Made by a program: the position numbers and the translations under genes. Of a stretch of 64,000 bases of DNA, positions 17,594 through 64,000 are shown in pieces (position 1 is the stretch's first letter; each line of letters opens with the position of its first letter). The notes beneath the pieces were generated by a model. That model saw only the letters and a program-made list of their open reading frames with translations. It searched no databases and was not told the origin of the DNA. The stretch is taken from the NCBI GenBank assembly GCA_011800155.1, contig JAALGH010000019.1, forward strand, positions 62,001-126,000. The letters run 5' to 3'. The DNA comes from Flammulina velutipes (Eukaryota; Basidiomycota; Agaricomycetes; Agaricales; Physalacriaceae).

Positions 17594-17669
17594 AGGGCCG
17601 CGCGGATAGGAAAATTTCCCAGCCAACGCTACCATCTCAAGCCCCAAAGCCTGAAAAAAAAATTCCACC

Positions 17670-27236: not shown

Positions 27237-27238
27237 GA

Positions 27239-32961: not shown

Positions 32962-33615
32962 GTGAAGAGCTCTATGAAGGATGAGGCGATTGTCTGGCTG
33001 ATGGGATTCGCAGACGGTACGTTTCGTGCTAGGCCTATAGCTGGTCTGACTGCTGAAGCTCCCACGGTAGCCAGCCTCGCCAATTATTTTCCTGAAATCC
33101 ACGCGGATTATGAGTCAGTTTTGGAAGCAGTGGTGGGAGACAACCCGACGCTCTCCCGCCCCTTTCCCAACTGCGCCTTCGCAGCCGCCCAGGCCAACTT
33201 TCCCCCTGCAGCTTTCACACAGCTCCATACCAACCACCTCAACCATATCGCCGGCCTCTGCGCGCTTTGGGGCTTGGGGAACTATGACCCGGACAAGGGT
33301 GGGCACCTCATCCTCTGGGATCTCAAACTCATCATACGATTCCCTCCGGGAAACTTAATTCTGATACCCTTGGCGCTCATCAAGCATGGCAACTTTGGCG
33401 TATACCAAGGGCAAACCCGGTGTGCATTTGTCATGTTCTCTGCCGCTGGATTATTTCGATGGTTTATGAATGACATGAGGTCGGATCTGGAAGTCAAGGA
33501 GGGGTGTTTGGCGGAGCATGTGAAGGAGTGGCGCCAGTATAGAGAAAGCCTGCGCTGTCTCAATCCCGAGCGGTTTCCCTTGTGGGAGGACCTCGTTTCA
33601 GCTCGTAGTGTATAG
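32962..33615 (+). CDS. TET/JBP-like 2-oxoglutarate/Fe(II) dioxygenase, altered iron ligand
   Basis: 217 codons, one exon visible. It contains LHTNHLNHIAGL, LGNYDPDKGGHLILWDLK, RFPPGNLILIPLALIKHGN and RCAFVMFSAAGLFRW. These are the core strands of the fungal TET/JBP dioxygenase family, which oxidises methylated cytosine or thymine and is reported to be expanded alongside KDZ transposons in basidiomycetes. The first motif should hold HxD...N, with His and Asp as Fe(II) ligands. Here it reads H-T-N-H-L-N, so the Asp appears to be Asn. The distal His (IKHGN) and the Arg after it are kept. Activity is therefore doubtful. The N-terminus is short and an upstream exon may be missing. It lies between hAT1 and KDZ3. 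Confidence 0.75.
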   Translation: MKSSMKDEAIVWLMGFADGTFRARPIAGLTAEAPTVASLANYFPEIHADYESVLEAVVGDNPTLSRPFPNCAFAAAQANFPPAAFTQLHTNHLNHIAGLCALWGLGNYDPDKGGHLILWDLKLIIRFPPGNLILIPLALIKHGNFGVYQGQTRCAFVMFSAAGLFRWFMNDMRSDLEVKEGCLAEHVKEWRQYRESLRCLNPERFPLWEDLVSARSV

Positions 33616-36089: not shown

Positions 36090-39054
36090 ATGACCATGAG
36101 CCAGGAAAGCACCCCCCATTCCAAACCAGATGTCTCCACTGTAGAACCTCCCAAGGCTCCCAGCAAACTCCCAGGGAATCCCTTCCAATTTGGCAGCCCT
36201 TCCAGAGCTACCTTCCCCCTTCGTCGCCCGACACAGACCCCTACCAGCTCACCGACGAAAGTGCTCGGGAGCCCAAAGAAATCTGGCAGAGTTGTTACTC
36301 CCCTTCGGGATCCAACGCGAACCCCCAGCAAAAAGCATAAGGGGAAAGGCGCCTTTCAGCAGGGCACTCCGAAGAAAGCATCGGACCCCCTGCCCAACTT
36401 CATCCCCGCGATCTCCCCCCCCAAACCCTCCGATGAGGTGGAAGGAGTCCGTGTTACTGCGACCTCTGTCGAATTCTCCAGGTTCTCCTCTCTATTGAAG
36501 GCAGCTGGTGGAGTCCCTGTTGATCCTTACGGCTGGGATCAACTTATTCATGAACCCGAACCCGCAGCGTTCGAAGCCGCAGAGGTCTCATCGGAAGAAG
36601 TGGAAGTTGTGCCATCGCCTGAGGAACCTTCAGAACCCACTACCTCTGCCCCATCGGAGGTGAGCACCCCCTTTTATCATTGCTCATCACGCCTCTAACC
36701 CATGGCCGTAGGCGCGACGGAGAATGGAAGATTTCCAAACCAACCTTCCCGCGTTTCATAGGATCCTCATGGATCTGGAGTACGATGACAGAGTCAACCA
36801 ACCATGTTCCTGCGATGGCCAGGAGTCGTGTGGCGTTCGACTTGTTCGTTGCGAGCAGTGTCCTGACCCGAGCGTCGTCTGCGCGCAGTGCTTTCTGGAT
36901 AGACATCGCTGGACATGGACTCATTGCGCTGAGGTTTGGAACCCATCTTTAGAGATCTTTCAAAAGACCTCTATTTCCGACCTATCCGTCCCATTCTATT
37001 CTCAATTAGGCCACCAAGGAGTGCCGTGTCCCTCACCCACCGACACTATCGGCTTCATCGTGGTGGACGTACACGGTATCCATAGGATTCGTATCCGGTT
37101 TTGCAACTGCAAGGATGGAGAGAATAGCCCCCACTTTCATCAACTACTGCGGGCCCGCCTGTTCCCAAACACCACCAGCCGACCTCGGATAGCGTTCAGT
37201 CTGGAGTGGCTTCGGCACTTTCAGCTTATTCATACCGAAGGAGCTTTGAGCACTGCTGCTTTGATGGCGGCCTGGCAACGAATCACTAATAACGCCTATC
37301 CTTGGGTGGTAGCAGTAAGTCAACTTGATGCTCTCTTCCTCAGGCTTCGCCTCATGCCATTTTCTTTTCAGGATCTTGTCAAACAAGCAGGACGGGTGTT
37401 CCGGATCTTTAAACTGGTCAAGGCTGAAAGGCGAGCAGGGAAGATTCATGATATCCACGTCGAAATTCCTACGCGCCCGCGCAACCATCTCATGGTACTC
37501 TGTCCTGCTTGTCCGGAGATAGGATTCAACGTCGTTCCCGAAGAGTACAGGAATATACCAGAGCATCTGAAGTGCGTCTAATACTCCACCTATCATGGAC
37601 CCGCACTGATTGAATGAGTTTCTAGACACATTTGTCGCATAGAGAAGACCCTCGATGGCAACTTTAAGCAAACTGCAGGGGCTCACACTTCCAACAACGA
37701 CGACATCGACCTCATTGGTGGGGACGGACTGTACCCCGTTGAGGAGATCATGCCTGCCTATCGGGATCGAATTGTTACACCAAACGACGCACAGAAAGTG
37801 AGAGCCAAACAGGTGAGCGCCTGTGTTTACAATCACCATATACTTCTTTGACCAGATGCCGCCTAGAAAATCATCTGCAACGACCATAAGTCCCAAAGTA
37901 CTGCAGACAAAAACGTGCGTTCGAAAAGCATGCAATACAACGGGGTCCTACAGTGTCAGTGCTCTCATGTCTTTGTATGCTCCACGTTGGAGATCCCAAA
38001 AGGCGAAGAGTAAGCAAGTGTCTCACACTTAACGAAGTTTTGGCTAATGATGGCCGGCAGCCATAAAAGTGCGGACATGGCGCTCAACCTGGGCCTCGAG
38101 TGTAGCGGTTTGAATAACATCAAGCAAGGAGAGCCGGTGCCGCCTCAGGTATATTGCTATGATAGCATGTGCAGATATTCTACCAACCTCACATTTCGGT
38201 TCGAAAATACGCCTGAGCTGTCCCCTCTTAGCTGGCTCATAGGATTTGCGCTACTCCTCATAGGTGCAGCGCATGTCTATGCGCATGTGGACGTTTGCAA
38301 ATATATATTTGGCCCCTTCTACATTCTCTGCGCTGCACATTTCCATGGTGAAACCGCGGAACACTTTTGGGCTATCGCCAATAGATTCACGTCCATCATC
38401 TTCCAGATGAATCACAACCATGGTCACGAGGTTTACTTCCACGTCGCTATGGACTGGAACTGGAAGAAGTATATCAACTTTCGTGAGTCTTGGACCAATA
38501 GGATTAGGGTTTCAAGGTCAAGTCAAAGTGACTGTGAATGACCATTAACTTAGCTTGACTTGACTGCAGTTAAGGGTTTCGGTCAAGGTTTGGTCAAGGG
38601 TTAAGGGCAGTCAAGGTCATAGGTCAAGGCTAATCTTGAGAAATCTTTGACTGGTCCCTGTTGGTCAATGATTTTAATCAAGGTTAAATACTAAACCTAT
38701 CTGAAACAGCCTAATACATGATAGTAATAGTAGTTTATCAGTTATTGACTGGTTATAACTCTTAACTTGACTGCAATTAATTGAATTTTAACTTGACTGA
38801 TGTAAATTGGTCAAGGATTTTGACCGGTTAAAGTTAAGGTCAAGAGAAATCAAGGATTTTTCTTGACTGGTTAAGGTCAGGTCAAGAGAAATTTGGTGAA
38901 TAACCTGACTTGACTTGACTTTAAAACCCTAAATAGGATCTAACGTTGGAATCTCACCGTCCCCTCAGCAAACCAGCTACACAAAGAAATTGAATACGCA
39001 TACGCTCAGCATTTGGCGTTCAAGCGGGAGTTCGACGCATCCTGCATTCATAAC
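36090..39054 (+). pseudogene. KDZ3 transposase, first part
   Basis: Starts MTMSQESTPHSKPDVST with a Pro/Ser/Lys-rich leader. The CxC cluster follows (CSCDGQESCGVRLVRCEQC, CAQCFLDRH), then the KDZ region: LGHQGVPCPSP, HGIHRIRIRFCNC, FSLEWLRHFQLIHTEG. Later exons give ICNDHKSQSTADKNVRSKSM and GVLQCQCSHVFV after an intron (about 37813-37866), then YDSMCRYSTNLTFRF and HGETAEHFWAIANR, ending AMDWNWKKYINF. One intron (38483 to about 38969) contains a MITE; the next exon is NQLHKEIEYAYAQHL to CIHN. There the hAT2 element starts. Each intron tested keeps the frame. Confidence 0.85.
38505..38931. mobile_element. 427-bp MITE inside a KDZ3 intron
   Basis: Perfect 8-bp target duplication AATAGGAT (38497-38504 and 38932-38939). 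The termini TAGGGTTTCAAGGTCAAGTC and, inverted, TAGGGTTTTAAAGTCAAGTC match at 18 of 20 positions. The interior is packed with GGTCAAG/CTTGACT words. The length of the duplication fits the hAT superfamily. The host intron keeps its GTGAGT donor and CTCAG acceptor. Confidence 0.9.
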
Positions 39055-46141: not shown

Positions 46142-46423
46142 GTGTGGTTATAAACACTCAAATAAGCACAGTTTATTTCTCCCTTGTAATAATTATATTT
46201 AACTCCCTTATTAAAGTATTCTTTTAAAAGCTATCATTTTCGGGCTTCTCGGGCTGGCTTTTCAGCGGCAATTCCCGGCATTAACCCTCTGGCGCGCTAT
46301 TGGGCAGATATGGCGGGATAGGCGCGGATAGCGGGCTGCTATGACCTCCAATAGTTCGGAAATGTCATTTTTATTCATTATTCTATTCATTTTACCAGTG
46401 TATCAATCAATAGAACATCTACA

Positions 46424-46910
46424 AGCGCTGGATGCACTTCGTGCGCCACGGATGTACCAGACCCCAGCAAATCCCGTGTGTACCCAAAAGTACGGGAATG
46501 AGCAAAAGCGGCGGGAACGCGCCGTCCAAATGCTTTAAAAAATGACATTCATACCGGCAAAAGGGAGTTCACAATGTATCTAGTGTAATTGAGGCCATAT
46601 CGTACCCAGAAGCGCTGGATGTGCTTCGTGCGCCACGGATGTACCAGACCCCGGCAAATCCCGTGTGTACCCAAAAGTACGGGAATGGGCAAAAGCGGCG
46701 GGAACGCGCCGTCCGAATGCTTTAAAAAATGATATTCATACCGGCAAAAGGGAGTTCACAATGTATCTAGTGTAATTGAGGCCATATCGTACCCAGAAGC
46801 GCTGGATGCGCTTCGTGCGCCACGGATGTACCAGACCCCGGCAAATCCCGTGTGTACCCAAAAGTACGGGAATGGGCAAAAGCGGCGGGAACGCGCCGTT
46901 CGAATGCCTC
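46424..46910 (+). repeat. 187-bp tandem repeat, about 2.6 copies
   Basis: Units start with AGCGCTGGATG at 46424, 46611 and 46798, a period of 187 bp. Copies are nearly identical. Each has GTGCGCCACGG and the small hairpin GTACCCAAAAGTAC. The third copy stops near 46910, and a diverged piece (AGCGGTGGATGCGCCTCGTG) follows near 46950. No coding meaning. Confidence 0.85.
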
Positions 46911-47068
46911 TGGATCTAATACACAGTCGTCGGGGCAATATTGCGCCCAGAAGCGGTGGATGCGCCTCGTGCTTTACAGCGCAGCAAGATATACATTGTA
47001 CATATAGGTCATGATACAAAATAACAATAACATATGTATGCAATGATCAAGAAAAAGTCCGAGGTAGA
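46911..47068. other. 3' flank of P2
   Basis: Short AT-rich stretch after the tandem repeat, holding the 3' end of P2. Nothing else seen. Confidence 0.35.
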
Positions 47069-49195
47069 CTACACTAAACACGATAGAACCCAACCTACAT
47101 CACTCAACGCCCGAGACCAGTCACTTAAGTCTGTCATACAATCTACTGCTACCTCCCCCCACCAGCCGAGCGCCATCAGCACGGAAAGAAATCCGTTGAT
47201 TCCACGTGTGTCCAAAGGTCCCCAAGATTTGTCGCCAGCATCGGGACGGTGTTCGTTAATGACATGTATGTCGCCTATTTTCACTCCGCGCCACGTTGGC
47301 TGAATGGAAATCCACCACTGCCAAAAGTCTCTTGAGAGGGCTGTGTGCTTCTTCGACGAAAAATCGTCCTCCCTGGAGCGTCCTCGGGCAATCCAAAAGG
47401 TGACCCAACCGGGTCGTTTGGTAGCGGGTAGAAAGGGGAGGGGATCGGGGAACTTCGCAGGATCCTGGGTTTCTAATTGTACCCAAAGCTTGATGACCTT
47501 TCGGAAGTTCACCGGCACGTCAAAAGCCAGGAGTCGTTCTTCGGCCCGTGCGATCCAATCTGGGAGCAACCTGATCTCCTTCTCGGGAGGAGCGGGAGGA
47601 GGAGTAGGAGGAGGAACGGGAGGAGGAGAGGCCGAGGGAGGAGCAGGAGCAGGAGAGGAGGCCGAGGGAGGCACGCTCGAGGGAGGAGCGGGAGAATTGC
47701 CCGACGCTGCTCTTGATCCTCTTCCTCTCCCTGGCATCGCCCTAGTCTCAGTGGGACCGAGTGTCTGATTGTCGGGTTCGTAGTCCTCGTTGTCGTCCAA
47801 AACCGAACCTCGTTTCTTGGCGTTCGAGCCCTCCAGATTCGTGTCGGCAGGGCGCTTGTGTGCTGAGGATACATGGAGGGGAAGTGGCGAGGCGGTAGAC
47901 AGGACTGGGAGGGCTTCCCCAACAGTGTTCCAAGGCTTGGGTTGTCTCATGAACGAGGGCATGGTCTGGGACACGGCGACTGTCGGAAGTGTGCGCTTCT
48001 CTTGCTCACTTATGGCTAAAAATACATTAGCACACATTACGCGTATGGCCTGAACACGCACTGAAGCATTCCATGGCGAACTCGCCGAACGCTGTTTCGA
48101 CTATCTTGCGACGCCTCTTCCCGCGTTCACCGCCCACCATATCGAACGTCTCCGGGATAGCAGCCTTGTTCGCTCCCGCGTGCACTCTAGAATATAGCGT
48201 GAACAAAAATGCAAGGGAATACAAAACCTGCACTTACGAGATGACGTTCACTTGGCCACCTTTCACAGGTTCCGGGCCAGCCCAAATTATAGAGACGTTG
48301 CCACTCGTGAGGATGGCCAACCCTTTGATAAATTCCTGCATCGTATTCGCCAGGTTATCAATGACTCTGAGAAAAGTTAGTGAAGGACAGGGTATGAAAG
48401 AAAGAAAGTGACGCACTCTTGGGTTTCCACTGGACCAAGAGGAGTAAGAGGACCGCTCAATGCCTCCTTTGCCCGCGCTACCGCCGCTTGATCCTCCCGG
48501 GCCCGCTCCTTCCACACTGCTTGCTCATCAGCCGGTAGCGCTTTGAACGCTGCCATCGAATGAGCTTGCGCCTTCGCCACACGTCCCCTCTGTGAGCTAA
48601 CGCACTCCTCCTCCACTTCCTCGTCCACATCGACTCGAACAGTCCCGAACTCCTCTTTTGACCACATTTGGAAGGGAGTAAGACCTCGACGACGTTGCCC
48701 TTGGAGCTTGACGCCCGACACCTTGGCGAGGAGGGCAGCCAGTGGATTGCGAGCGATGTCTGCCTTCGTCATGCGCGCGATTGGGTCTGCTGACCCCCAA
48801 CGATTCTCAAAGAAGTTTTCGATGCCCTGCGGGAGTCAGAACAAAATTCTATGCAAAGAAAAAAAGGCTCACCTTCATCAGGCGACCTAAAGCCTGTCCT
48901 TTGAGCGCCATATCTTCCTCGCTGAGTGACGCTTTGTCGTAGACCGTGCTATCATCCGGCTCCTGGTCCATAGGCAACCACCATGTAAATTTCTTGACGA
49001 AAGCGTTGACGACTTCGTGGGCGTATTCAAAACCTGTGTTTCGGCCTTTGCGTCGTTTCGCCCGATGTGCATCTTGGTGGCTGTTGAGAAACTCCAGCCG
49101 CTGACCCTTGGCCCAATTCCGGCGAAATGGAGATACATCCCTGTATCAATGTTAGGATGATCCGAGAACAGAATATCAGATACATACACTGCCAT
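47069..49195 (-). CDS. P2, apparently intact P-family protein
   Basis: Six exons in phase. ATGGCAGT (49195-49188), intron 49187-49141, then VDVSPFRRNWAKGQRLEFLN (N-terminal module). Intron 48872-48827, then GIENFFENRW, a basic region (VSGVKLQGQRRRGLTPFQMW) and ALPADEQAVWKERA. Next comes a compact module NVSIIWAGPEPVKGGQVNVI, then VHAGANKAAIPETFDMVGGE. A long Pro/Ala/Ser linker (PPVPPPTPPPAPP) leads to the C-terminal domain: PGWVTFWIARGR, FWQWWISIQPTWRG, RGINGFLSVLMALGWWGEVA. I know this family only as a widespread, uncharacterised protein set in Agaricomycetes. The GP...GG module and the WW..xQPxWR / NGxLSV motifs are diagnostic. Function unknown; the mobile context of P1/P3 suggests an element-borne protein. 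Confidence 0.8.
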
Positions 49196-50090: not shown

Positions 50091-50484
50091 CTAGTCAGAG
50101 GATCCAGCGTCTCCATCCTGTACGGCCGTGGGGTCCGCAGCACCACTATCCACTGGAGCAGCCTCACCTTCGCCTTCACCCTCCACTGCCTCCTGCGCCT
50201 CAAGCTCCTGCTCCTCCTGCTCCTGCTCTTCGTCCTGCTCCCCATCCTCCTTCAGATCTATTCGGTCCTTGACTCTTGCCTTCTTCGCCTTGATCACTTT
50301 CGACCAAACCACTTCGCAATTTGCAGCGAGCGTCTCGTAATTGTCGGCCTGCCGCTGCCCATAAGCGGAGATGCCTTCAAGCAAGGCCGTATCATCCAAC
50401 CCTGCCCATCCCGACGTGCGACCTTGCCAAGCGGTGACTTCGTGGCGGAACGAAAGTAGAGTCCTTCGCTTCTCTTCGCGTAGG
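50091..50484 (-). pseudogene. KDZ4 transposase, C-terminal part (split by copy B)
   Basis: Carries the KDZ end: REEKRRTLLSFRHEVTAW, GISAYGQRQADNYETLAANC, and an acidic Glu/Ala-rich tail (EEQEQEEQELEAQEAVEGE). The upstream part of the gene lies 13 kb away at 63538-64000. The join LLR|EEKRR is exact in frame once copy B and one duplication are removed. Confidence 0.85.
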
Positions 50485-50545
50485 GAGCCATAGCTGTAAC
50501 CCTCAGCCAAAAGTCCAGGGATGTATCCCTACAGGTAAATGACAG
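50485..50545 (+). repeat. copy B left terminal inverted repeat
   Basis: Matches the inverse of 63480-63537: A-CC-T-GCTG-A at the tip, then AGGGATRTATCCCTAC with GGTAAWT behind it. The 12-base palindrome GGGATGTATCCC is part of it. Confidence 0.75.
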
Positions 50546-51552
50546 TGCTGGGGTTACATCCCTACTGGGCTTGAAGGGATGTCACCACCACCACCACCAC
50601 CACCCAGGCTTTGTCAGCCCTCCCGCCCCCGCCCTATGCTAGGCACACCAGGTACCGCCTTTGGTACCATTTCCCATGAACCGTCGGGTATTCCCGTTGC
50701 TTACCTACACGGTGTGGCGTAGCTTTTAAATAAATCATTTCGTTCCCGCGGATAGCTCCGGTCTCCGTATATCAGTATGATGTAGCCTCACCTTATGACT
50801 GTGATGCAACAGTGTTGCATAGCAGGATAGCTGCTGTCCTGGCCATTGCCGCTGCCGCTGCCGTTGCTTACCTACGCAATGTGGCGCACATCGTAATAAA
50901 TCTTCGTCCGGATAGCTCCGTCCCCCTAGTACCGCAACAAGTGTCTGCCGTCTGAGCGCTGTATAGCGTTAGTAGCTGGCTGGCCAGTACCGTTGCCTAC
51001 CGGCATCATGTGGTGCACGTTCCAATTATTTTTAGCCGCTACAGCCCCATCCTACCAGGGTGGAGCACCACATTGCACTGCATCTTATATTCACTGTTGA
51101 ATCATCCAGCCACTAGCCGTTGCCGCTTCTTACCGACCCAATGTGGCACAACCATCCAATCCGTTGCCACCCCGCGCAGCACCGTGCGGCGCCCAGTTAA
51201 TAGCGCTACCTACCTCTAGGCCGTTAAATCAGCCTGTGCACGTGCACGGTTTTACCTACTTCTCAATTGTGTGAAGCTCACTTATATCAGGCTGTCCAAT
51301 ACCTATAATCAAACATTATGTACTGTCTTACCCTATGCTATGAGCATGTCAACCTGTCCCGCCACTCCCTCAATCCCGAAAGAAGATTCATCCCGCTCAC
51401 ATTTTCTCCAAGTCCGTCTCATGACATCATCCGGCAGGTGCCGACATCCTGGATCCAGTAGAATCCAGAAACGTATATACTGTAGCTCTATTTCGACGAT
51501 AACATAGACGCCTACGGTACGTTGTTATGTTACCTTCAACCACTATCCCAAT
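50546..51552. other. copy B left non-coding end with subterminal repeats
   Basis: No gene. A unit near CCGTTGCTTACCTAC..AATGTGGCGCA occurs four times in the same direction at about 50692, 50861, 50990 and 51117, decaying from first to last; the first two also share GGATAGCTCCG. A (CAC)n run (CACCACCACCACC) lies near 50583. These repeats are good candidates for transposase-binding sites. Confidence 0.6.
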
Positions 51553-54136
51553 CTACTGAAATCCACGCAGCCTCAATCCTTCCATCATCCACGCGGCATC
51601 CGTTACGTACTCTTCCCACACGCTCTCTCCATCTTCCTCAGTCAGCGCTTCCCTCCACCAGTACAGACAGGCGACTACCGACAGCCAGCCGTTCTGACCC
51701 CAAACGTCTAAACCTTCAAAATCTCGCCCATGCCGTGTTCTCAACCATTTCCCGTCCTTCTCTTTCCTCCATGACGGCTGCATGGAATCCCACCACCCGA
51801 TAAAGGACGCCTTGAACACGGGCAGGTCCTTTGCTTTCAATGACAACATCCTCCTCGCGGCTGCCCCTCCCTTCTTTGGCTTCAACCGCCCATCGGCCAC
51901 CCACTCCGATAGAATTGCCGGGCGACCTTGAGCAGGCAAACTTCCTCTCGCTTCGCCAAATTCAACCGAACCTTCCAGTTTAACGAACGACTCCAGCAAC
52001 ATTTTCCATGCCTGCCCCCAGCCAGGTGCAGCGAACACGCGGTACGGAATCCCGAACCAATCCACGACCTCCAAGAGCAACTCGCGTGCCTCGTCATCTA
52101 CTTGCGTCCCCGGCGTATCGATGATGGGTATGTTTTTTTCCTTCCCATTCCCGTCCCTCGTGGCTGACTCGCTCGACAGAGCTTTCGTGGGGGAAGGATC
52201 CACGGTAGATGGTTCATGGATAACAACGGGCGGGGTGACTGGGATGAGTGCCGTGCCTGACGTCAGGGCTGGGATGGGCACGACAGACGATGAGCCCTGG
52301 GTGGGTGAACTGGGAGGCGCTTCAGGCAAATCTGAAGGCGGGATGATAGGCGGAGAGGCTTGTCCATTGGTCAAGGGGGTTGGCGTAGGGATCGTGTCAA
52401 TGTCCATCGGTGCGTCTCCTTCCATGGGATTATCAACGTCCATAGGCTCACCCGCCCCAGTGTTTCCAGCCGACGACCCTTTCAAGCGACCTGACTGACG
52501 TCGCTCAACCATCTCTGTATCCACCGGTTTCGCGACAGGTGCCTTTTTGGTAGCCGGCGGCTTGGTCCCCGTCGCCTTCGGTAGAGCACCCAGATTAATG
52601 TTCAGACCTTCCAAAATCGCCTTGTTTCTGCGTATGTTGGCCTCCCTTTCAAGCTCGTACCGAGAAATCAACCGTCCATCCACCATGACAAGGAGAGGGT
52701 CAGGAGATTCCAGTCCCGCTTTATCTTTGTCGACCTTCTGGCGTTTCGCCTGAGTTGACGTCGATGCCAAACTAGGTGCAGGACGCTTCTGTCCACCAAT
52801 GCCCTCGTCATCATCAGCATCGTCTATGTCGGACCCTTCGTCGTCTGTTCCCGCCAACTCGCCTGTATCCTTTGCCCGGACTGTCGCTTTGACGGTCTCG
52901 ACGACTCTGTCCAGGACGTCGTCCTCGAATACGGTGCCTTTGAAGTCTGCTGGGAGCTGTGGTGTCACGCTCATCTTGAATGTGTCCTTGTCGGCTTGAG
53001 TGTACGCGGTGTTGGCGAACTTGACCAAATGGTTGCGCCAACCCTCGTAGGCGCCAGTGTCCCACTTTGCGACACTCACCGGGACCGTGTCTAGATTCTT
53101 CCCAGAACAAACACTTCAGAAAAGACAGGTCAGTGACTCGCACGCTGCCTCACAACTGTTTCGCTCACGTAACGACACCTATCTCTCCATTCAGCAAACC
53201 CATGGGTCCGACAACATGCACAATCGTCATCAGCCCAGTGAGGGACTTTATTCCTTCTGCGACAGGCTGGAGAAAGGCGGGCAAATTTTTAACACAGCTG
53301 ACGAAATGGTTAGTTCCATTCTGCCCTACACAATTCAGGTAGAACTCACTCCGCGCGATCCTCAGGTGCCTTTGAAGGGGGTCCAAGATAGGCGTCGTTC
53401 CATTGAGTCTTCTTCAGCTCCGCGGTCGACTTTGCACGCTCCGCCCAAGACTTCTGAATATCGGCGCTCAACGAGACGAAATGGGCCTGGACAGTCTCCT
53501 GGCGAAATTTAGGACAGATGCCTCCCCTAGCCGGTATAGTCTGTCGCCCCGCGCTGACCTCCTTCTCCCACCGGTCCTTCACAATAGACGTCGCCTCCTC
53601 CTTATTCTGTGCCTGCCACTCCTGGGATGCCGTGCGAGCTCTGGGAGGGCGCATGCCAAGCTTCCCAACTTTATTCAGCAGCGCGAGGTACGCGTCGGTG
53701 AGAAGGCGACGGCGAACAGTGGAACGGATCGTGGTCAGCTTCAGCGCCCTGTACAACAGCCACGCGCGAATAGCCTACGACCATGATTAGTTACAGTGGC
53801 GCACAGACAACATTGGACGCTGACCTTTATCTTTTTCTCCCTCAGGGCCCTCTTCGTTCGCAATTCCTCAAGTGTTCCCTCCTCAACTGGCGGCATCCAC
53901 GATTCCTCGAAGTCCTTCAAAGGCAGTGTAGGCTCGATAGTGTCGTCCAAGTCGAAGTGGTAGAAGTATTGACGGACGACCTTGCGAAGAGCTTCCTCCT
54001 CTGCCGCAGCTCCCTTTCCCATCGCAGTCGCGAAGTCATCGACATGCTGGTTGAGGAAATCCTCCCGCGCTCCCTCCGCCCAGCCCTTTTTCGTAGCACG
54101 CTGGGCCTTGGGCTTTTTCGTGTATTTCTGTGGCAT
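51553..54136 (-). CDS. P3, intact P-family protein of copy B
   Basis: Start MPQKYTKKPKAQRATKKGW (54136). N-terminal helical module (REDFLNQHVDDFATAMGKG, VVRQYFYHFDL). Intron 53826-53777. Then AIRAWLLYRALKLTTI and an R.QEWQAQNK...W..E region. A 52-nt intron leads to the central module FLQPVAEGIKSLTGLMTIVH, VGPMGLLNGEIGVV, and another intron leads to VSVAKWDTGAYEGWRNHL. A long disordered Ser/Pro/Asp-rich linker follows, with an NLS-like TQAKRQKVDKDK. The C-terminal domain has GRPAILSEWVADGRL, FIGWWDSMQPSWRKEK and WGQNGWLSVVACLYWW. About 800 residues, frame intact. Same module order as P2. It starts 230 bp from V3 in the opposite direction. Function unknown. Confidence 0.8.
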
Positions 54137-54365
54137 GTTGATGTTGACTGACAATGGATTCACAGACAGACGACAGAGGATCAAGGGAATGAGCTAGCAG
54201 AAGGATCGTACGGCCCGTATACTATTTCCAATGGCGATGGCTCCTGCTTTCCCCGCCACAATGGAACTGCACGTTCCATGTGCGTTTCCGGCTATCTGAT
54301 CCCCCGTTTTCTTTTAAGGTGGGCCCCAATTATTCCATCTTGATTCATCCTTTCCATCTTTTCTC
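54137..54365. promoter_or_regulatory. shared divergent promoter of P3 and V3
   Basis: 230 bp between two head-to-head start codons. The same arrangement exists between P1 and V1 in copy A. No clear TATA box; a pyrimidine-rich tract precedes the V3 ATG. Confidence 0.5.
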
Positions 54366-55136
54366 ATGTCGCAATCTCCCAGCCACCTTGACGCCAACGA
54401 ACAGCCCGATGGGCGCTGCTCGCTGTCGTCTCCGGCAGAGATCTCGACGAATACGTCTGCAGAGTTCGACACCGACAACGAAGAGAGCCTCAGCGAGTAC
54501 ACGATTATCAGTGAGTTGAATTTTATTTTATTTTCATTGTGCTAACACAGATCCAGCCGAGCTCGAACCTAGCTCTGTCGCCGAACCGAGTGTGTTGCCT
54601 CATTTCGTCGCTAACACTGTCATATTAATGTTACCTTTAGCCGTGTCCGAGCCTACCTCTATCGCCGAATCCAGTACGTTACGACAATATCGCGGCACCG
54701 ATTGTTTGCTAATATACCTTCTAGCCACGCCCACCAATGTTGTAGCCCCAACACCCGTTATCCACGGCATTCCTTACTACACCGTGCCCATGACCGACAT
54801 GGTCTACTTGGCAGCCGACGAACAGGCGCGCGAGTGGTACGTTGTCACCCGTGGCATTTTTGTAGGCGTTTTCAAATATTCGTATGTCTTTGGCATTGTT
54901 TTTCCAACGTCTCTCATCGATTTCGCAGGTTCCAGGTCGACCAAGCCACACGCAAAGTTGGTTCCGCCCATGGCAAGAAAGAGGACAGCTTGCGTGATGC
55001 CGTTGACCATTTCAATGCGGCGCGCAACTCGGACTGGATGCGTATCTGTGTGTCAGTCTCCGTTTATTATTTTCAACATCGACAGCCACTAATTTCCCTC
55101 ATAGTCGTCCTGATCTTTGAAACCATAGTCATGTGA
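54366..55136 (+). CDS. V3, viroplasmin-like domain protein
   Basis: Starts MSQSPSHLDANEQPDGRCSL with an acidic stretch (FDTDNEESLSEY). Several tiny exons follow (the repeated 'EP(S/T)S(V/I)AE' pieces near 54550-54680). Then comes the domain REWYVVTRGIFVGVFKY, an intron near 54883-54929, and FQVDQATRKVGSAHGKKEDS with a final AVDHFNAARN helix. This is the RNase H1 N-terminal/viroplasmin fold with no catalytic domain. Counterpart of V1 (shared QATRKV). Followed by V4 after a 90-bp gap. Confidence 0.65.
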
Positions 55137-55227
55137 AGTGAAAGCGATCGGACCGCATTTGCCGCTCTCGTACCTACTGTAGTGCCTCATTTGCAATAAA
55201 CTGGTTGCTCTTCCGTCTGTCTTCAAC

Positions 55228-56181
55228 ATGAGTGACACTGAGCACTACCCCGTCATCTGGGTTGACTCCTCCTCTGAATCCGAAGACTCTGCGATGTACG
55301 CAACCTGCGCGGATGACACAATTGATCTGCAACTCTCGGACAACGACGAGATTTGCCACTTGATAAATGCCCTCGCGATTGAGGAAGAGGAGGCAGCAGA
55401 TCGCGCAGGTATTCTTCGGATTTGTCTGATGGCTGCCGCCTTGCAAACTGATTGTCGTCCGTAGAACAGCAGAGGGCGGCAGCAGATGCCACCAGTTATC
55501 AAATTGTATCGCCACGGGGAGCGACGACCACTGCTCATTGGTTCGATAGTCCTCTCTTTGTTTCATTCTCCTTATTTACTTGATTCGCAGGGCGACAGCA
55601 GGCACCGCACAAATAGGAGGGGCCCACGTTGTCGCAGAAGTCAAACGCAAGAAGCCAAAGAAACGCTGGCCATACTATGTGGTTTTCATTGGGCGCCCCA
55701 CTGGCGTGCACACGGGCTGGCGCGACGCATACGCAGCAACGCATGGTGTTCGCAACAACTGCCTCAAGGGCTACGCCACGCTCCCGGAAGCACAGGCGGC
55801 CTTTGAGTATGCCGACCAACACGGATGGATTGGTCGACCTGATGGTGGATATCCGATTCCTCGTGTTCTCCCGATTCCACTGGATGCGCGTGGTGTCGTA
55901 GCTCCCGCGCTGACTCCTTTGTCCCCCAGTGATACATATCGTCGCTACTATTGCGTTTACCGTGGCCAGCGCCCGGGTATATACACTTCCCTGTAAGTTA
56001 CCTTCCTTCTGCTCGATCAAACACTCCACTCACACTCGCGCCCAGTATTGAGGCGCATCTGTCCTCTGTAGGTGTCCCGACTTCCCTCCATGAAGGGCTA
56101 TCCTCTATCACGGTGGCAAGGGAGAAGTACCTACAGGCTGTCGAGAGGCATGAGATTGTACATATTCCTGCCCCCCAATAG
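55228..56181 (+). CDS. V4, two viroplasmin-like domains
   Basis: Begins MSDTEHYPVIWVDSSSESED, acidic. Introns are inferred near 55411-55461 and 55542-55590. First domain: KRWPYYVVFIGRPTGVHTGW..., ending YATLPEAQAAFEYA. Second: YRRYYCVYRGQRPGIYTSL, an intron (about 55993-56045), then IEAHLSSVG and a helical tail (VAREKYLQAVERHEIV). The Y-V-V-x-x-G-x-x-x-G-I/V-Y/H core appears in both. Equivalent to V2 in copy A in layout and position. The stop lies 9 bp from the stop of M2 on the other strand. Confidence 0.7.
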
Positions 56182-56190
56182 TAGATTTGA

Positions 56191-56932
56191 TTACTGGAAC
56201 GATAACAAATTCAAACCAAATGCCTCCGGAAAATCCCCGCTGTCAACATGGTGATGAATTTCATCGAGAAATTGCATAGCCATGGACATTTCGTTCTGCA
56301 CGCTCCTCGCCTCCCTCCACTCGGATATCGTCCCATGCTGCTGAAACAAAGCCCTGATATGTGGACGGGCCCCATCGATGAACGTAGCCACCCTCTCCAA
56401 GTAGCTGGTGATAGTCCGGAGCTGGAGTTCCGTAGGCGTAACACTGATTTCTTCAGCCACGCGGTTGCAGAACTCCTCGACAGTTGTCTCCATGAAATCG
56501 CCAAGTAATTGATTCTGTCGATGCACACAAGCCAAAAGATGTTGTGGCGCAGTAATGTGCTCTTCGTTCTCGGAAACCCTAAATGTAGTGTCAGCATCTA
56601 ATCAGTTTATAAATTATTTCACTGGCTTCTCTGTTGTATGAGGGACGTGCTGGCTCGCTATCTTCTGTCCGACGTTCTGAGGATCGAGCCTCTGCGCCAC
56701 ATCCTCCGGAATTGTGGTTGTCTGGAGACGGGGCAATCCAGGCGTTGGCAGGGCAGATTTACGCTTTTTGTATGCTTTAAGGATTTTGTTGTGGTTGCTG
56801 GCAAACCCAATGAAGTCAGAATCACACTTGAGACGCAAAGAAAGCCCATTACCGGTCATACCAGTTCATCCTGTTGCGACGACGAGCCTCAGTCTTCTCT
56901 TCTTCAGTAAGGTAAAGCTTCTTCCGTCCCAT
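56191..56932 (-). CDS. M2, MGRKKLY-type protein
   Basis: Exon 1 encodes MGRKKLYLTEEEKTEARRRN and ends at GTAATG (about 56852). Exon 2 is basic then polar (NHNKILKAYKKRKSALPTPG ... TIPEDVAQRLDPQN). After an intron (GTGAAATAA...TTTAG, near 56624-56581) exon 3 is helical: MACVHRQNQLLGDF-type start, VEEFCNRVAEEISVTP, ARSVQNEMSMAMQFLDEIHH. Same three-exon layout as M1, with weak similarity outside the first exon. The basic N-terminus suggests nucleic-acid contact; function unknown. Confidence 0.65.
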
Positions 56933-57151
56933 CTTGGGTGGCAAAGGTCTAATCCAATGACCAAAAAGCGCGCAGAGTGTAAAATATGACGAACTCGTGA
57001 GAGAATGAGCTTAAGGAATCAAGATCAACTTGGGCGTTCGTTGGATCTTTATTGGATCTTTATTTTATAAACGCTCTGCGCACATCGCCTGGACTCACAT
57101 ACCTTGATATAGACCCATAATGATTTTCCAATCTATCTCAGCGCTCAATTT

Positions 57152-57609
57152 ATGAACCCACAGACGTCCCCAGGATGCAAAGTGCTACGATTTAACATAC
57201 TGCGGCCATCCGGGCCGATTGCCGTGAGTTGTATCAATGGATACCTTGTTCAAGGTTCGTGCCATTTAGCTGAACCCACCATGAGGGACAGAGAGAGTTT
57301 GCGCAAGGATTTCGCACAACAGAACCGGACGCACACTTTGTCACCAGACACAGAATTTGTGCACGCAAGCGTGCAGCTCACATTAGCGCTCATGCGATAT
57401 GCTCGACCCGACGAAGCAAGGCGTCGAAGGGAATTCTTGTTCATCATTTAGAGGTGGACGGCAAGCTGCGATACCTGTTTGAGGATACAGAATGGGAGGA
57501 GAAACTACGAGCGGTAGATGAGGAGGTAAAAATGAGGGAGCACGCACGGGAGAAATGGGTTGACGGAATGATCAAATCGTATCAGGCGGCAGAGCGTAAC
57601 GACTTGTAG
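57152..57609 (+). CDS. hypothetical protein in copy B, probable frame break
   Basis: A TATA-like TATAAAC (about 57066) precedes ATG 57152. The first part is MNPQTSPGCKVLRFNILRPS through VHASVQLTLALMRYAR, which ends at a stop near 57451. The coding signal then continues in another frame (VDGKLRYLFEDTEWEEKLRA, a charged helix) to a stop at 57609. Either an unrecognised short intron or a frameshift near 57400-57440 joins them. No family recognised. Confidence 0.45.
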
Positions 57610-57653
57610 CGTGCGTGTGCGAGGGCAAATAATATTGTTGTAGAAGATGCTTA

Positions 57654-58006
57654 TTACAATTTGGGCTTTCTCCACCAATGCCAGATCTTCTCGGTAGTTT
57701 CACCATCCGCTCTACTGCCCCGGACGAGATAACGGTTTTGGCGCCGACAAGCCACGTCGTAGGAAAACTGAGGCTGGTGAGTGAGCCATATCGGGTGGAA
57801 TAGCGCCGTCTGCACGAAGAGCCGCGGGCGAAGCATCGCATCGCGGTATGACCAGTCTCTGGCGGGAAGGGAACCGCCGTACGACGCTATAAGTAGCGTT
57901 TAGGTCTTGTAATTTATTTAATAAAAATCGGAGACATACCCATGGGAGCGGGCGGGGTAACGGCGACTGAAAACGTCTCTGCGTGCGATGAGTCAGAGTT
58001 GGACAT
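57654..58006 (-). CDS. small hypothetical protein in copy B
   Basis: Exon 1 MSNSDSSHAETFSVAVTPPA, intron GTATGTCTCCG...TTATAG (about 57940-57893), exon 2 SYGGSLPARDWSYRDAMLRP then FVQTALFHPIWLTHQPQFSY and a tryptophan-rich end (IWHWWRKPKL). About 100 residues. Splice signals are good; no family recognised. Confidence 0.45.
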
Positions 58007-58130
58007 GATGGTTGACGATAGAGCGTGGCTAGAGATCACATTGACCGAACGCCACAAACGTGCAGGCAGGGAGGACACATGGTCGCAGAAATCGTGCATT
58101 TATTGAACTAAATAAGTCTGCCTGGTGTAC

Positions 58131-58607
58131 CTACTTGCTCTTGGGGCGTGGAGCACGAGGACTAAAGAAAAGGAGATTCTCCAATTTTTGTCCCAAAGCC
58201 TGCAGGAACGTGAATTTAGCAATGTTTAACGCCATAGAACTGCAAAAAATATACCCTGGCGCGCGACTGATGGTACCGCCCAACCAACTCCTCGTCCTCT
58301 GGGAAGGGAGGGGTATTGTGCTCGGGATATGCCTCCAAAAACTTGCGCCACACGGAGTTGAGATAGGCGAGACGGGCGACTGGTTCTTTCTGGTGGTCGC
58401 GATACTCCTCCAAATGACGGCGGATAAATGTGAATTGACCGCCTGTCACGCACAAACTTGTCGCTGGATCCATGTCAAGCCGGGTTCTGCAACACAGCGG
58501 GGAGAAGACCTACATGTGCTAACTCGCAGAGCCTTTTCCTTCGGTGGTCTCGTCTCATTGCGCGGGGACTGGCTGTTCTTTTCAGGAGGCGTAGTGACCT
58601 TGGGCAT
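58131..58607 (-). CDS. small protein with the P-like N-terminal module
   Basis: Core exon: MDPATSLCVTGGQFTFIRRH, LEEYRDHQKEP, AYLNSVWRKFLEAYPEHN, FPEDEELVGRYHQSRAR. An intron (GTATATTTTTTGCAG...CCTGCAG) leads to ALGQKLENLLFFSPRAPRPK and the stop. An upstream Met (58607, MPKVTTPPEKNSQSPRNETR) is possible, but no clean splice links it; otherwise the start is Met 58473. It resembles the 12136 gene of copy A ('VW+F..A+P') and sits in the same place, just upstream of the KDZ gene, but on the other strand. Function unknown. Confidence 0.5.
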
Positions 58608-59049
58608 CGAAGTGATGTGGAGTGTTCCTGCAACGTCGTCAAAATTTAAATATGGAATGAATATACCTGCAGGAAGCCCTGAACAGGCAAATGGTTTCCG
58701 AGTATAGCCACGCCACAAATCAGACAAATTAGAGAAGGAAACAGCCACACGCTCGCACATCCGGAAGCATCAGATAATTTGTGGCGAGGGGTCTTTCCGC
58801 AGAAGCTGCTCGACCTTCCCTACCGTTCCCTAGTTCAGCCACCAAGGTTATACGTTCGACCAGATTTTACCTGCATCGTACGACGACAGAGAAGGCGAGC
58901 CTACTGAGACTTTGGCCTCAACCGAGGGAAGCTAGTGAATTGGTCTGGGAGAGTCCACCGTCACCGTCACGAGTCACGGTCCGTTATTTCATCTCACCTT
59001 TAACAACAATGGCCAACATCTTGGATATGTCGTTCAGCCCTTCCTGCCA
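58608..59049. promoter_or_regulatory. divergent upstream region of KDZ2
   Basis: Lies between the small minus-strand gene and the KDZ2 start. No definite TATA box. A possible alternative upstream start (MANILDMSF, 59009) is in a different frame from the clear MDEETPIPEKSWDLRW start. Confidence 0.35.
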
Positions 59050-62000
59050 ATGGATGAAGAGACTCCGATACCTGAGAAGAGCTGGGACCTGAGATGGCGT
59101 CCTCCAGAGGAATACCATGCGCGGAGGAGCTATGAGATCAGGAATTTTGGAACGACATCCATCGGTCCGCCTCCTGCTGCCTTTACGCCTCAACCACCCA
59201 CTGCACCCGCTGCACCACTCCCTTTGCCAGGCGTTTATACCCTTCCATTAATTCCTTCCCCCCCTTCGGCCTATGCAGCTACACAACCACTCCCGGCCCA
59301 ACGGAAAAAACGCAGGAAGACGGGCGTCTCCGACATCTCTCTGCCCGAACTACCAACAGAAACACTGCCGGGCTATACGCGAAGAGACGTGGATACCACG
59401 TTCGAATTCTCTGCAGACGGAGATCGTGCCGTCCGTGTTGCCGAGCTACGCAATGTACCCATAGTCAAGCGAGTACGCGTGAGCAGCTCCAGCGACTGGG
59501 TCGGTCGCTCGGGAATGGATCCTCCTGCTGGCCCGGAAAACGGAGACTCTGATTCGGACGAGAGTGTCGCGCAGGAGGAGATGGATACGGAAGACCCTTG
59601 GCAAGACGTGGAAGAAGGCTGCAATCCAGCCGCACTGTTGGATGAGACTGGCGAGATTCGCGATGGAAAGCGCAAGACTTATGCTAGCTCGGTAAGTTCT
59701 TTCCCTCTGGTTGCTAGTCCCTCTTTCTGACTGGCCTGGACGCAGGATGATCCCATGTCTCTCTTTCTACCTATGATGGACACGATCTTGGACGAAACTT
59801 TTGTGCGCGAAAGCATCCCCACCCAAGCATGCTGTCACACTTGCTGTGCACCTCTGGCCACGCCTCCCTCGCCCTCGCATGCTTCGGCTTCGTCCCCTCC
59901 GGGTGATCCCCTTCCTCCATCGCTTTCCTCGACCTCCTCTACACCCGAGGATGGAGGACGCGTTCACGTCGATCAACTGTTCAAGTGTACGACGTGTGGA
60001 GAATTCCTTGAATGTCGTTCATGCTGTATGGAACGACACCAGCATACGCCACTCCATATGATAAAGGTACTTAATCTTATACTCTTGGGACGATGTAAAC
60101 TGATCTTTTGGGAGGTATGGTCTGCCATAGGCCACTTCTCGCGGACAGCGCTGCGTGATCTCGGGTTATGCTTTCAGCTGGGACATGGTGGAGGTCGTTG
60201 TCCGGTCCCTGGGGCACTCAGAGCGGTGACAGTTATGCATGTCAACGGAGTACACCAAGTTACCACATCAATTTGCGGGTGCGACTTGTCGGACGACGCC
60301 AACGAGTGGCGACAGTATATACGGATGGGATGGTACCCCGCATCGACTGCGCAGCCCCGGACGTTTGCCACCTTCGAATGCCTACGACATTTCCGACGTC
60401 TCAATGTGGTAGCAAATGTGAACGTGCGGGACTACGTTACGACTCTGGAGCGTCTGTCGGACCCCATGGGACTGGAGTTTCTCCCTGACCGATACAAATC
60501 ATTTGGCTTGATGTCCCAGCAGGTCTCCTACTTGGATCGAATGCGTAGGTCAGGTCTTGGATATCTGAAGGGGGGTGTCCGCTCAGCAGCTTGGGGTTCA
60601 GCTGCCGTGCGCTGTTGGGCATGCCCGCGCGCCAAAGTTAATCTGCCCGAGAACTGGAAGGAGGTCGAGGGAAACCTCCAGTGAGTCACAGTATCACCTT
60701 CGACGAGGCAATTCTAACGTAGTTGCAGGTTCAAGTACGCCCTCATCTTGGGAATGGATGCATGTTTCCGTTTGGAGAACCGGCTCCGTGCAAAGAGCGA
60801 GAACAAGGCGTATACCATTCTGGCCGACGGACTTGGGTGTTTTGTACCCCACGAAAGCTATTTCTCCCATCTGAAAAATTACGTGAAAGAGGACGATGTG
60901 CGTTTTTTTTGATTACTGGACGTTTACGAAGGTCGAAGCTCATGTTGTATCCAGATCAGTAGTTGCATTGCGTTTGCAGCGTTGATGCAAAAAGACACAC
61001 GCATTTCAAGAGGTCTACGAGCGACGGGCGTAGGGGGCTGCATATGCACACGTCATGAGGTTATACGTCCCCTGGGTCTAGGTGACCTTCTTAAGGGCGA
61101 GCGGTATGTCTTCGCAGGATGTTCAGTACAACATGGAATTAATGAGTGTGTGTAGATACGCCAATATGGATTACATCTTTTGGGCCTCAATCCTGGGCGA
61201 AGATCTCTTGCAGTATGTCGTCTCCTACGACATTGGATGTCAATGGAAGATCAACATGGAGGATCGCCGCAAAAACCTACCAGCGATTTTGCGAGATGAC
61301 AGCGACACACGCAATATCTGCGTCGGACTCCCAGTGTGGCACGGGGGAGGTCACAGAGATGCGTGCAATTCATCAGAGTCTTTGCGCTACAAACAGGGAG
61401 CAGGCATGACGGACGGCGAGGGAGTCGAGCGGGTTTGGAGTAAAATGGGCCCTAAGGCTTGGGCTACAAAGGAGATGCATGAGAATACACGTCACGAGAG
61501 CCTAGAGGACACTATGGATGATCTCAATTGGACGAAGAATCTGGGTCTCGGTGCGTGAATTTTTTTCGGACGTTGGCTCGAATACATGGCTGACATACAG
61601 TGTTAGGTATCCTTCTTCGGCGCCGCTACGAGGTGGCCAAAGTCGAACAGAAGGAGCAGGCAGAGAATTTCAAAACCACGAGTGCGACTCTGGATATCAA
61701 GTTGCGCGAGAGTTGGATGGCGTGGATCAAGGACTGGCACGCTCAAGAGTTCATTTCACCCAAGGACAAGACAGTCGCCAATCCATACGAGGCGTCTTGG
61801 AAAAATGGTAGGGTTTTTTTTCGGCAGCATCCAGTCAATTTCACTCATCGCTTGAAACAGAGACGATCACAGTGGACAGGGTTCACACGGATCTGGATAG
61901 AGAGGAGTTGGAACAGCTTCGAGAGGAGCGCCAGGAAACAAACAAGAAGAAGTCGACATCTGGCAATATTAGCCAAAGCATGAAGGGCGTCGCCGGTGCC

Positions 62001-63226
62001 CTGGCGTTCGTTCGTTTGGGCTTGGATGTACAGAGTCTCCAGTAAGTTCTTGTTCTACTACGGGGATAGTTGGTGACTGACATTTGGGTAGGTTGCGAAT
62101 AAAAAATATGAACAAAGCGCGCCGCAAAGAGGATGGTCATGCACGTCTTCTCCAAGCACGACGAACAGGATTCTGGAAGAAACTCCGTCGCTTTTGCGCA
62201 CTTCAGGCGACTTTCATGCCACACGCACTGGCTCTGGCTTCGGATCACGAGCAGGCCATTACGGCAAAGCGAGAGGAGGCAGGGCGCAAGGCCAAACAGG
62301 CTGCGAAGCCGGTCGAGGCTGAGGACGTCAGACTATTTCTTCCTTCCGAAATTCCGAAAGCTGAGCGTGGGCCCTCCTACCGCCAAGCTATCTTCTCAAC
62401 AGAATCCCGCTTACGGGAAGCTCAGTGCTCAACCCAACTATCTACGCTGCGCATGCTCTTACACACGAAGTCGCATCTCATCCGTTTTCGAGATGCAAAT
62501 CTCCGAGGCCAGACGAAAACAACTCGTTCGCGGGGGGCACTGGATCGCCTGAGTGACCGTATTGACAGTGCCGTGCGTCGATATCGTGTGGCGAGGAAGG
62601 CCTTGGTGGGGTTAGACGGGGAGGAAAAATGGTCGCATTTTAGGGTTTTGGACGACGCGGACGTCTCCACTCGATTCGTCACTGACTACGATGGTCTGCG
62701 TGCCCGTCGCCTCGCAAAAATCGGCCGAGACGGCAAGCGAAGCATGATAGCGCATGCTGAGGAGGAGAATGACGGTGCAGAAGTGCGTGGTGGGAGTCGC
62801 CGGAAGTTGAGCTGGATTTGGACAGCGCAGGGCGTTCCGGATCCTGATGAGGATGAGGCCTTGCATGAATGTAAGTAATTTTTTCCGGGCTGCGCCGCAC
62901 TGGTTGACTTGCTATCTCTAGCGATTCGTCTAGAATGGACGAAGGCTTATGCACGAAAGGAGAGATGGCGGGAGGAGCTCCTTTTGCTCGAGGAGGAGAT
63001 GCGTCGGGTGGTGGCATCGTTGGAGTATGAGCGTGGGGAGTGGACACGTAGGAAGGATGAAGTTGTGGGCAGAGATAGGATTAGCGCTGGCAAGCGAGCT
63101 TACGCGCAACGCCAGGCGGCCTTACGTTCAAAGCTTCGTGATGAATGTAAGACACGCTTCGAATCTGTAGAGGAGCTCGGACGAACAGGGAAAAAGAGGA
63201 GGGCGAACACTGTGGCGCAGGGGTAG
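59050..63226 (+). CDS. KDZ2 transposase, intact, transposase of copy B
   Basis: Starts MDEETPIPEKSWDLRWRPPE. A disordered N-terminus with a basic RKKRRKTG ends GKRKTYASS. Intron 59692-59745, then the CxC cluster: CCHTCCAP and CTTCGEFLECRSCCMERH. Catalytic part: LGHGGGRCPVPG, MGWYPASTAQPRTFATFECL, LGMDACFRLENRL, YDIGCQWKIN, VWHGGGHRDACNSSESL, DGEGVERVWS. The Asp, Asp and Glu in the FRL, CQW and GEGVER blocks are the likely metal ligands. The C-terminal helices include KLSWIWTAQGVPDPDEDEAL and LLEEEMRRVVASLEYERGEW. About ten short introns; no stop or frameshift seen. It should be the enzyme that moves copy B. Closest relative in the window: KDZ1. Confidence 0.92.
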
Positions 63227-63479
63227 TTAGTGGTACTAGAATAGTGCAATGTTACTCAGTGGTTCCGGTATGCCGAAATATTGGGTGCAAGACCTGCTCG
63301 CTTTGGGCTGGAGTCCCTGATAATGGCGGGCTCGTGTAGGGCGGGGAAGGTATTATGGCGGGAGATGGTGTAATGAGAATGACAGTACATCGGGCTACAT
63401 CGGTCCGGGACGCAGGCACGACGCGAGAAATGGATTGTTTCCGCTGATAAGGCCCGGGTGGGGTTGTATCCCTAACACA
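63227..63479. other. copy B right non-coding end
   Basis: No gene. Contains GGGGTTGTATCCCTAA, related to the AGGGATRTATCCCT palindrome of the terminal repeat; the left end has a matching GGGGTTACATCCCTAC. Confidence 0.5.
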
Positions 63480-63537
63480 TATGAATTACCGGTAGGGATA
63501 TATCCCTAGAGGCTAGCATCTACCTGCAGCCACGGGT
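63480..63537 (-). repeat. copy B right terminal inverted repeat
   Basis: Inverse of 50485-50545: ACCCGTGGCTGCA at the tip and AGGGATATATCCCTACCGGTAA further in. Confidence 0.75.
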
Positions 63538-64000
63538 GGCGTAGGAGCCGTACGTCTTCCCACGAACGGTTGACTCGCGCCCGACTTTTCAACCACTCAA
63601 TGCGCACCATCCCGTCCATCTCGTCTTTAGCCATAGAATCCATTGCGCCCCCAACCATCCAAATCCACGAGAGCTCGAACGTTGAGCTTCCATACTCCGC
63701 TCTGTCCTTGTTCTGCCCAAGCCGCATCTTCTTTCTCGCCGGCATATCCGCTGCATTATCGATGTCGAAGACCTGACTGTTGAGGTCCCGGATGTCCTTG
63801 TCCTCCAATATCCGCAGAGTCTTCATCCAAGCGCCAGGGCCTCGGAGGAGCAGAAGCGTGTTTCGAGCCGTTCGATATTTCTGGACAACAAGCTGCTCGC
63901 GAGCCTTCAGGCGATGCAGGGCACTCCATGTCCGAGTTGTCTGCTTTTGCGAACGTTGGTTAAGTTGACGATAGTATGAGATGGAACGCCTGGAGCGGAT
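63538..64000 (-). pseudogene. KDZ4 transposase, upstream part (continues past the window)
   Basis: Minus-strand frame open to the window edge: QKYRTARNTLLLLRG, KTLRILEDKDIRDLNSQVFD, KKMRLGQNKDR, FELSWIWMVGGAMDSMAKDE, VRIEWLKSRARVNRSWEDVR, then LLR where copy B begins. This is the conserved region just before the last helices of KDZ transposases. It continues in frame at 50484. Confidence 0.85.

Follow-up and report, generated by a model that had tools for sequence, protein, structure and literature searches.

The window analysed here comprises 64,000 bp of a contig from Flammulina velutipes (C19:62001-126000), and the searches described below covered the 38.1-Mb genome. Toward the right end of the window lies a large element of the KDZ type, designated E19, which interrupts the gene of another KDZ transposase in its 3' part. 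Beside its own transposase gene T, the element carries the genes A, B1, B2, C and D2, a remnant of gene D and a mini open reading frame (ORF) K (Table 1). The genes were modelled with a conservation-driven spliced gene finder, and their exons are predicted.

The left terminus of E19 was placed at position 50485, because a genome search with its first 120 bp retrieved, beside E19 itself, five further left ends, all of which align from the first base of the query. The corresponding search with the right end matched E19 alone, and other right ends were then sought in the surroundings of the retrieved sequences. The element was delimited to 50485-63538, since GCGTAGG is repeated exactly outside both termini. 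An earlier note on this DNA, made from the letters of the window, had proposed one insertion from 50485 to 63537 with an imperfect target duplication; the single insertion and its left bound hold, but the right bound is 63538 and the duplication is a perfect 7-mer. If the flanks are joined with one copy of GCGTAGG, a single open frame of a KDZ C-terminus runs across the junction, which bears out the claim that another KDZ gene was split. An empty site with an uninterrupted KDZ gene, which the note had suggested as a check, is also present: the joined flanks (600 bp) match C19:34268-34851 on the same contig at 97%, and the junction is spanned by matches of 74-76% at five further sites. That E19 is one bounded insertion is directly evidenced.

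Table 1. Features of E19 and of its insertion site; positions refer to the window.
Feature	Position	Strand	Remarks
Interrupted host KDZ gene, 3' part	50091..50484	-	
Target site duplication GCGTAGG, left copy	50478..50484	.	7 bp; flank comparison
E19 element	50485..63538	+	13,054 bp; termini GAGCCATAGCTGTA...CACGGGTG
Outer left site	50517..50530	.	AGGGATGTATCCCT; element position 33
Inner left site	50550..50563	.	GGGGTTACATCCCT; element position 66
Gene A (P of the earlier note)	51553..54136	-	4 predicted exons, 799 amino acids
Gene B1	54366..55120	+	about 150 amino acids; 5' exons uncertain; distantly similar to B2 (viroplasmin-like)
Gene B2	55228..56181	+	264 amino acids; RNase H1 N-terminal (Cauli_VI/viroplasmin) domains
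Gene C	56191..56932	-	about 190-200 amino acids; basic MGRKKLY N-terminus, conserved C-terminal part
Gene D remnant	57338..57570	+	pieces matching residues 71-82 and 135-204 of 213; fuller D in other lineages
Mini-ORF K	57654..57881	-	similar to the region of the KDZ catalytic E (SYD..C...DGE..E..W..KL-stop); constraint weak, uncertain whether a gene
Gene D2	58131..58607	-	123 amino acids, 3 predicted exons
Gene T, KDZ transposase	59050..63226	+	9 predicted exons, 1255 amino acids; CxC2 cluster and KDZ core
Inner right site	63460..63473	.	GGGGTTGTATCCCT; element position -79
Outer right site	63494..63507	.	AGGGATATATCCCT; element position -45; perfect palindrome
Target site duplication GCGTAGG, right copy	63539..63545	.	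7 bp; flank comparison
Interrupted host KDZ gene, rest	63546..64000	-	runs past the window; KDZ core matches C19:129190-129815

Several additional copies that share ends and cargo with E19, the second check proposed in the note, were found in the genome; F5, F8b, F8c, F1b, G1, G3 and W2 were located by searching with gene A. A perfect 7-bp duplication at homologous termini is present in 11 of the 14 elements for which both ends were sought; three more left ends (F13, G13 and F5c) stand outside this count. The duplications are GCGTAGG (E19), AGCTGGC (E1), GGAAGAT (E6), CCCACAT (E9a), GGTTCGA (E9b), GCCGTTT (F5), GTTTGGT (F1b), AGCGCTC (F1c, ends only), GAAATTG (G1), CTCACGA (G3) and GCCGTCG (W2); the other three elements are E8, whose right end lies outside the sequence examined, F8b and F8c. 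The right terminus reads ...CAGGTG in E1, E6, E9a and E9b and ...CGGGTG in E19. E19, E1, E6 and E9a represent four lineages, which are about 30-35% apart in alignable DNA and colinear along their full length. Between E9a and E9b the identity is 99.96% over 13,475 bp, yet their duplications differ, and the family has therefore moved recently. For E9a an empty site was detected as well, since its joined flanks match positions 20505-21332 of the window at 97.6% over 829 bp, within a long terminal repeat (LTR) retrotransposon.

Two copies were themselves hit by other elements. E8 is nearly identical to E1 (99.2-99.5% in the compared parts) and is interrupted by E8n, a KDZ element of 11,198 bp (L009:5581 to L010:6778; C8:470440-481637) with the termini CAGGCC...GGTTG and the 7-bp duplication GACACCT, which encodes a homologue of the C-terminal domain of A (minus strand) and a transposase T (plus strand). 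W2 is a second element with this architecture, though diverged; it reaches from C19:61485 to position 29022 of the window, and its transposase gene is split by an LTR retrotransposon of 11.2 kb (window 16737-27960), whose 644-bp LTRs are identical.

The genes follow the order A(-), B1(+), B2(+), C(-), D(+), D2(-), T(+) in all eight close lineages (E19, E1, E6, E9a, F5, F8b, F8c and F1b), of which F8b and F5 are incomplete for T and A, respectively, in the sequence examined, and E19 retains D as a remnant. The bounded element with this cargo, a fixed gene order and several copies, as the note had envisaged it, is thereby borne out. In the second clade, consisting of G1, G3 and W2, the genes A, B2 and T are present at lower identity, and profiles built from the eight close lineages detected A, B1, B2 and C in all three elements (C in G3 with an E-value of only 0.004); this core set therefore predates the split of the two clades. 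With the same profiles D2 was matched weakly and on the opposite strand (E = 3e-5 in W2, 7e-4 in G1 and 0.013 in G3), and D was not found in these three elements. Probably, D2 is inverted in the second clade and another gene occupies the place of D.

The transposase T shows the motifs GMDACF, SYDIGCQW and DGEGVERVW with the expected D, D and E residues, is open in the spliced model and matches the Pfam families PF18758 (117 bits, cut-off 26.6) and CxC2 (104.5 bits, cut-off 27). For B2 the Cauli_VI family of Pfam was matched with 52.9 bits by the exon ORF of E19 and with 43.2 bits by the spliced model of E1 (cut-off 21). The spliced E1 model of B1 gave no match to Cauli_VI, and this protein is only distantly similar to B2. 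The end of gene C was set by ORF and alignment; the automatic models of E19 (263 and 328 amino acids) over-extend. Mini-ORF K occurs at the same place in seven other lineages, where the KDZ-like SYD..C...DGE..E..W motif is preserved and, in most of them, the C-terminal end is similar; it is possibly a relic derived from a transposase or a regulator. The cargo listed in the note is thus correct for the transposase, A, the viroplasmin-like B2, the MGRKKLY protein C and D2, but B1 lacks a Pfam match, D is a remnant and K is doubtful. The second exon of gene A encodes a region with an HMG-box-like predicted fold. The C-terminal domain of A is common to other KDZ elements, and A-like genes are more widespread than the E19 family. 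A homologue of this domain is located on the minus strand at positions 47075-47521 of the window, near the KDZ gene hit by E19.

Ratios of nonsynonymous to synonymous differences (pN/pS) were determined from codon alignments of the close lineages, from which stretches with less than 35% local identity were dropped, which lowers pN. The mean values (numbers of pairs in brackets) were 0.26 for A (10), 0.22 for B1 (10), 0.37 for B2 (15), 0.32 for C (15), 0.39 for D (21), 0.37 for D2 (10) and 0.18 for T (3). Synonymous differences amounted to 0.68-0.81 per site and are near saturation, and third codon positions are far more variable than first and second positions. Judged from these ratios (0.18-0.39), all seven genes are under purifying selection.

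Maximum-likelihood trees of T, of A and of the pooled other genes have three splits in common, namely E19+F5 (support 82, 100 and 83 for T, A and the pooled genes), E6+F8c (97, 99 and 96) and the G clade (100 in all three trees). The trees also conflict: the long-branched G clade is grouped with E1 in the tree of A (91) and stands elsewhere in that of T (66), and E9a is joined to E6+F8c by A and by the pooled cargo (92 and 89) but not by T. In Mantel tests against T, significant results were obtained for B2 and D and non-significant ones for A, B1, C and D2. Because of these conflicts and the non-significant tests, a joint descent of transposase and cargo is likely rather than certain, and some genes may have been exchanged among lineages.

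The association of the genes was also evident from their distribution in the genome. Of B2, 27 of 28 loci (merged from 52 matches) lie 0.9-3.7 kb from a gene A in divergent orientation, and all 13 loci of C (merged from 30 matches) are on the strand of A and tail-to-tail with B2 within 200 bp; both counts include near-identical, non-independent copies. A KDZ core was present 6-11.5 kb away and divergent for 27 of 35 A loci, compared to a mean of 0.7 and a maximum of 4 in 1000 trials of random placement; for six A loci a KDZ core occurs at this distance in another arrangement.

The ends of E19 show an inverted match of 59 alignment columns with a score of 56, the best of 300 random window pairs reaching 34. 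The matching inverted repeats claimed in the note are therefore real, but they are subterminal and do not form a classical terminal repeat: most of the match is accounted for by a pair of 14-bp sites at each end, and agreement in the outer 32 bp is poor. A scan with the palindromic consensus RGGGWTNNATCCCY, allowing up to two mismatches, detected the sites at +33 and +66 in all five left ends scanned (E19, E1, E6, E9a and E9b) and at -78/-79 and -45 in all seven right ends scanned (the same five, F5 and F1b). Elsewhere in the element or stretch there were between zero and five occurrences of the pattern, each with two mismatches, and it was not found in the ends of G3. Palindromes with at most one mismatched pair were formed by just 7 of the 16 sites of E19, E1, E6 and E9a and by none in the right ends of F5 and F1b; the background for such palindromes elsewhere is 0.10-0.20 per 130 bp. 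E8n possesses four near-palindromes at the same positions within one base, with another sequence (GTGGTTATAGCCAC and similar). In the genome a 14-bp pattern of the left end gave 31 matches, compared to 20 for the reversed-pattern control; for 18 of the 31 a gene A lies within 8 kb inside and antisense, and for none in the wrong orientation. As the starts of paired sites are 33-34 bp apart, i.e. about three helical turns, both sites would be exposed on one face of the DNA, and they may be binding sites of the transposase. The fixed register together with the family-specific sequence suggests a way in which the numerous KDZ families within a genome are kept from acting on the ends of one another.

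The surroundings of the element are crowded with nested transposons, including a KDZ element in a KDZ gene and the LTR element in W2. At C8:90403 and C8:90672 left ends of both clades are just 269 bp apart, which suggests that one element is nested near the end of the other. Outside E19, a 187-bp unit is repeated three times in tandem at positions 46423-46983 of the window, the further units being 97% and 67% identical to the first. Between the left end of E19 and gene A (window 50694-51148), a 26-bp direct repeat occurs in four diverged copies with a spacing of 129-167 bp.

The exact ends, the 7-bp duplications, the empty sites, the many copies and the joint conservation of the genes were observed directly, and we regard them as very well established. 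On the sequence evidence, the E19 family most probably represents (probability about 0.9) a DNA transposon of the KDZ superfamily that is autonomous, carries several genes and moves by cut-and-paste. The patchwork of nested insertions which the abundance of nested transposons in this region might suggest can be dismissed, with only the slightest chance of being correct, as the other copies are colinear over 13 kb with the same termini and perfect duplications and empty sites exist for both E19 and E9a; the colinear, independent copies rule it out.

In the most likely mechanism of this multi-gene transposon the transposase, with its CxC2 zinc cluster and DDE-type core, would bind the paired 14-bp sites near each end and perform the cut-and-paste reaction, and the HMG-like protein A would bend the end DNA and let the ends pair. 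C and D2 might be further DNA-binding or regulatory partners. In known proteins, RNase H1 N-terminal domains of the viroplasmin type attach to double-stranded RNA or to RNA/DNA hybrids, and B1 and B2 might shield the element from RNA-directed silencing by the host, as is thought of TET/JBP proteins in other KDZ elements. These accessory roles of A and of B1/B2 are proposed tentatively. Similarly tentative is the notion of a full inherited kit for transposition and evasion, consisting of an HMG-type bender, two DNA-binding regulators and two RNA-binding viroplasmin-type proteins in place of TET, with paired end sites that are fixed in position and variable in sequence across KDZ families.

Two other explanations concern the cargo. 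Transposons do capture genes, and the accessory genes might be host-derived passengers that serve the host or nobody; their products have no recognised function in transposition, save by analogy. This is very improbable, since C and B2 were hardly found outside these elements in the genome at the search sensitivity used, the gene order is fixed in eight lineages and largely kept in the second clade, and the genes are under purifying selection and have splits in common with the transposase. Alternatively, the transposase alone might be sufficient for movement of the same element, and the accessory genes might mainly form an anti-silencing or regulatory kit. TET/JBP genes carried by other KDZ elements are thought to counter methylation (PMC12730594), and B2 belongs to a viroplasmin-like domain family. 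Likewise in keeping with this explanation, the ORFs of two TET-like genomic loci, themselves sub-threshold Pfam matches, matched none of 11 family elements nor E8n (E ≤ 1e-3); a Pfam scan of 20 ORFs of E19 revealed no Tet_JBP. On the other hand, an HMG-like fold, as predicted for A, would be suited to bending the end DNA, and a complex of several proteins is suggested by the paired end sites. We consider this explanation possible, although rather unlikely.

TET-like sequences were detected near members of the family, i.e. at L006:1805-2221, about 0.2 kb outside the left end of E9b, and at L046:602-1231, between the A gene of F8c and the nearest left end of the family (C8:970598). The latter is one of the two loci whose ORFs were compared with the family elements, and it may be nested there or form part of the element. 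TET-type genes are therefore close neighbours of the family. Positions 33064-33462 of the window, which have no Pfam match of their own, are similar to TET/JBP-like ORFs elsewhere and lie about 4 kb from a KDZ core (37648-38460); a TET-type KDZ element is probably situated between W2 and E19.

In eukaryotes, transposons of the cut-and-paste type mostly have genes for one or two proteins. With seven conserved genes, exact ends and recent copies, a KDZ element would rank among the more complex fungal DNA transposons, and the function of six orphan gene families becomes testable. The family might also provide an alternative to TET/JBP by which transposons of mushrooms escape silencing.

Among known systems, and as judged from the published description, the E19 family is nearest to Kyakuja because of its 7-bp duplications and its TG terminus. 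Kyakuja transposons, as described by Kojima (2025, PMC12730594), contain a TET/JBP gene beside the KDZ transposase gene, create 7-bp duplications and have 5'-CA..TG-3' termini without terminal inverted repeats (TIRs). They share with E19 the type of transposase, the length of the duplication, the ...TG-3' terminus and an extra gene next to the transposase gene, but the E19 family has 5'-GAGCC...GGTG-3' termini (GA..TG) with paired subterminal sites, and in place of the reported TET/JBP cargo it carries six or seven other genes, among which no TET was found. E8n resembles Kyakuja (PMC12730594) in its CA..TG termini and 7-bp duplication. Zisupton, as characterised in the same source, also belongs to the KDZ superfamily, but has TIRs and 8-bp duplications in comparison to 7 bp here. 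KDZ1, KDZ2 and KDZ3 of Cryptococcus are likewise large KDZ elements (about 9-11 kb) of proven mobility, but possess CxC1 instead of CxC2 and TIRs of 139-241 bp; their duplications comprise 8 bp (KDZ1) and 4-8 bp (KDZ2 and KDZ3), and the passages on them do not mention an accessory gene (PMC12810828). In the KDZ proteins of Pleurotus a CxC2 cluster precedes the KDZ core, as in T; the passages on them do not describe the ends or cargo of the elements (PMC7641404). For KDZ elements of the agaric Marasmius oreades, a supplementary figure characterises a motif of the termini (PMC8290104), and ends like those of the E19 family might already be shown there.

A description of the E19 gene set was not found in the portions of the literature searched. 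The term "composite" used in the earlier note is not appropriate, as the cargo is neither an assembly of two elements nor the product of a recent capture: the gene set is common to lineages with saturated synonymous sites, and transposase and cargo have three splits in common. "New kind" was too strong, since KDZ elements with an extra gene, such as Kyakuja with TET/JBP, are already known (PMC12730594); what is new in the E19 family is its different and larger gene set.

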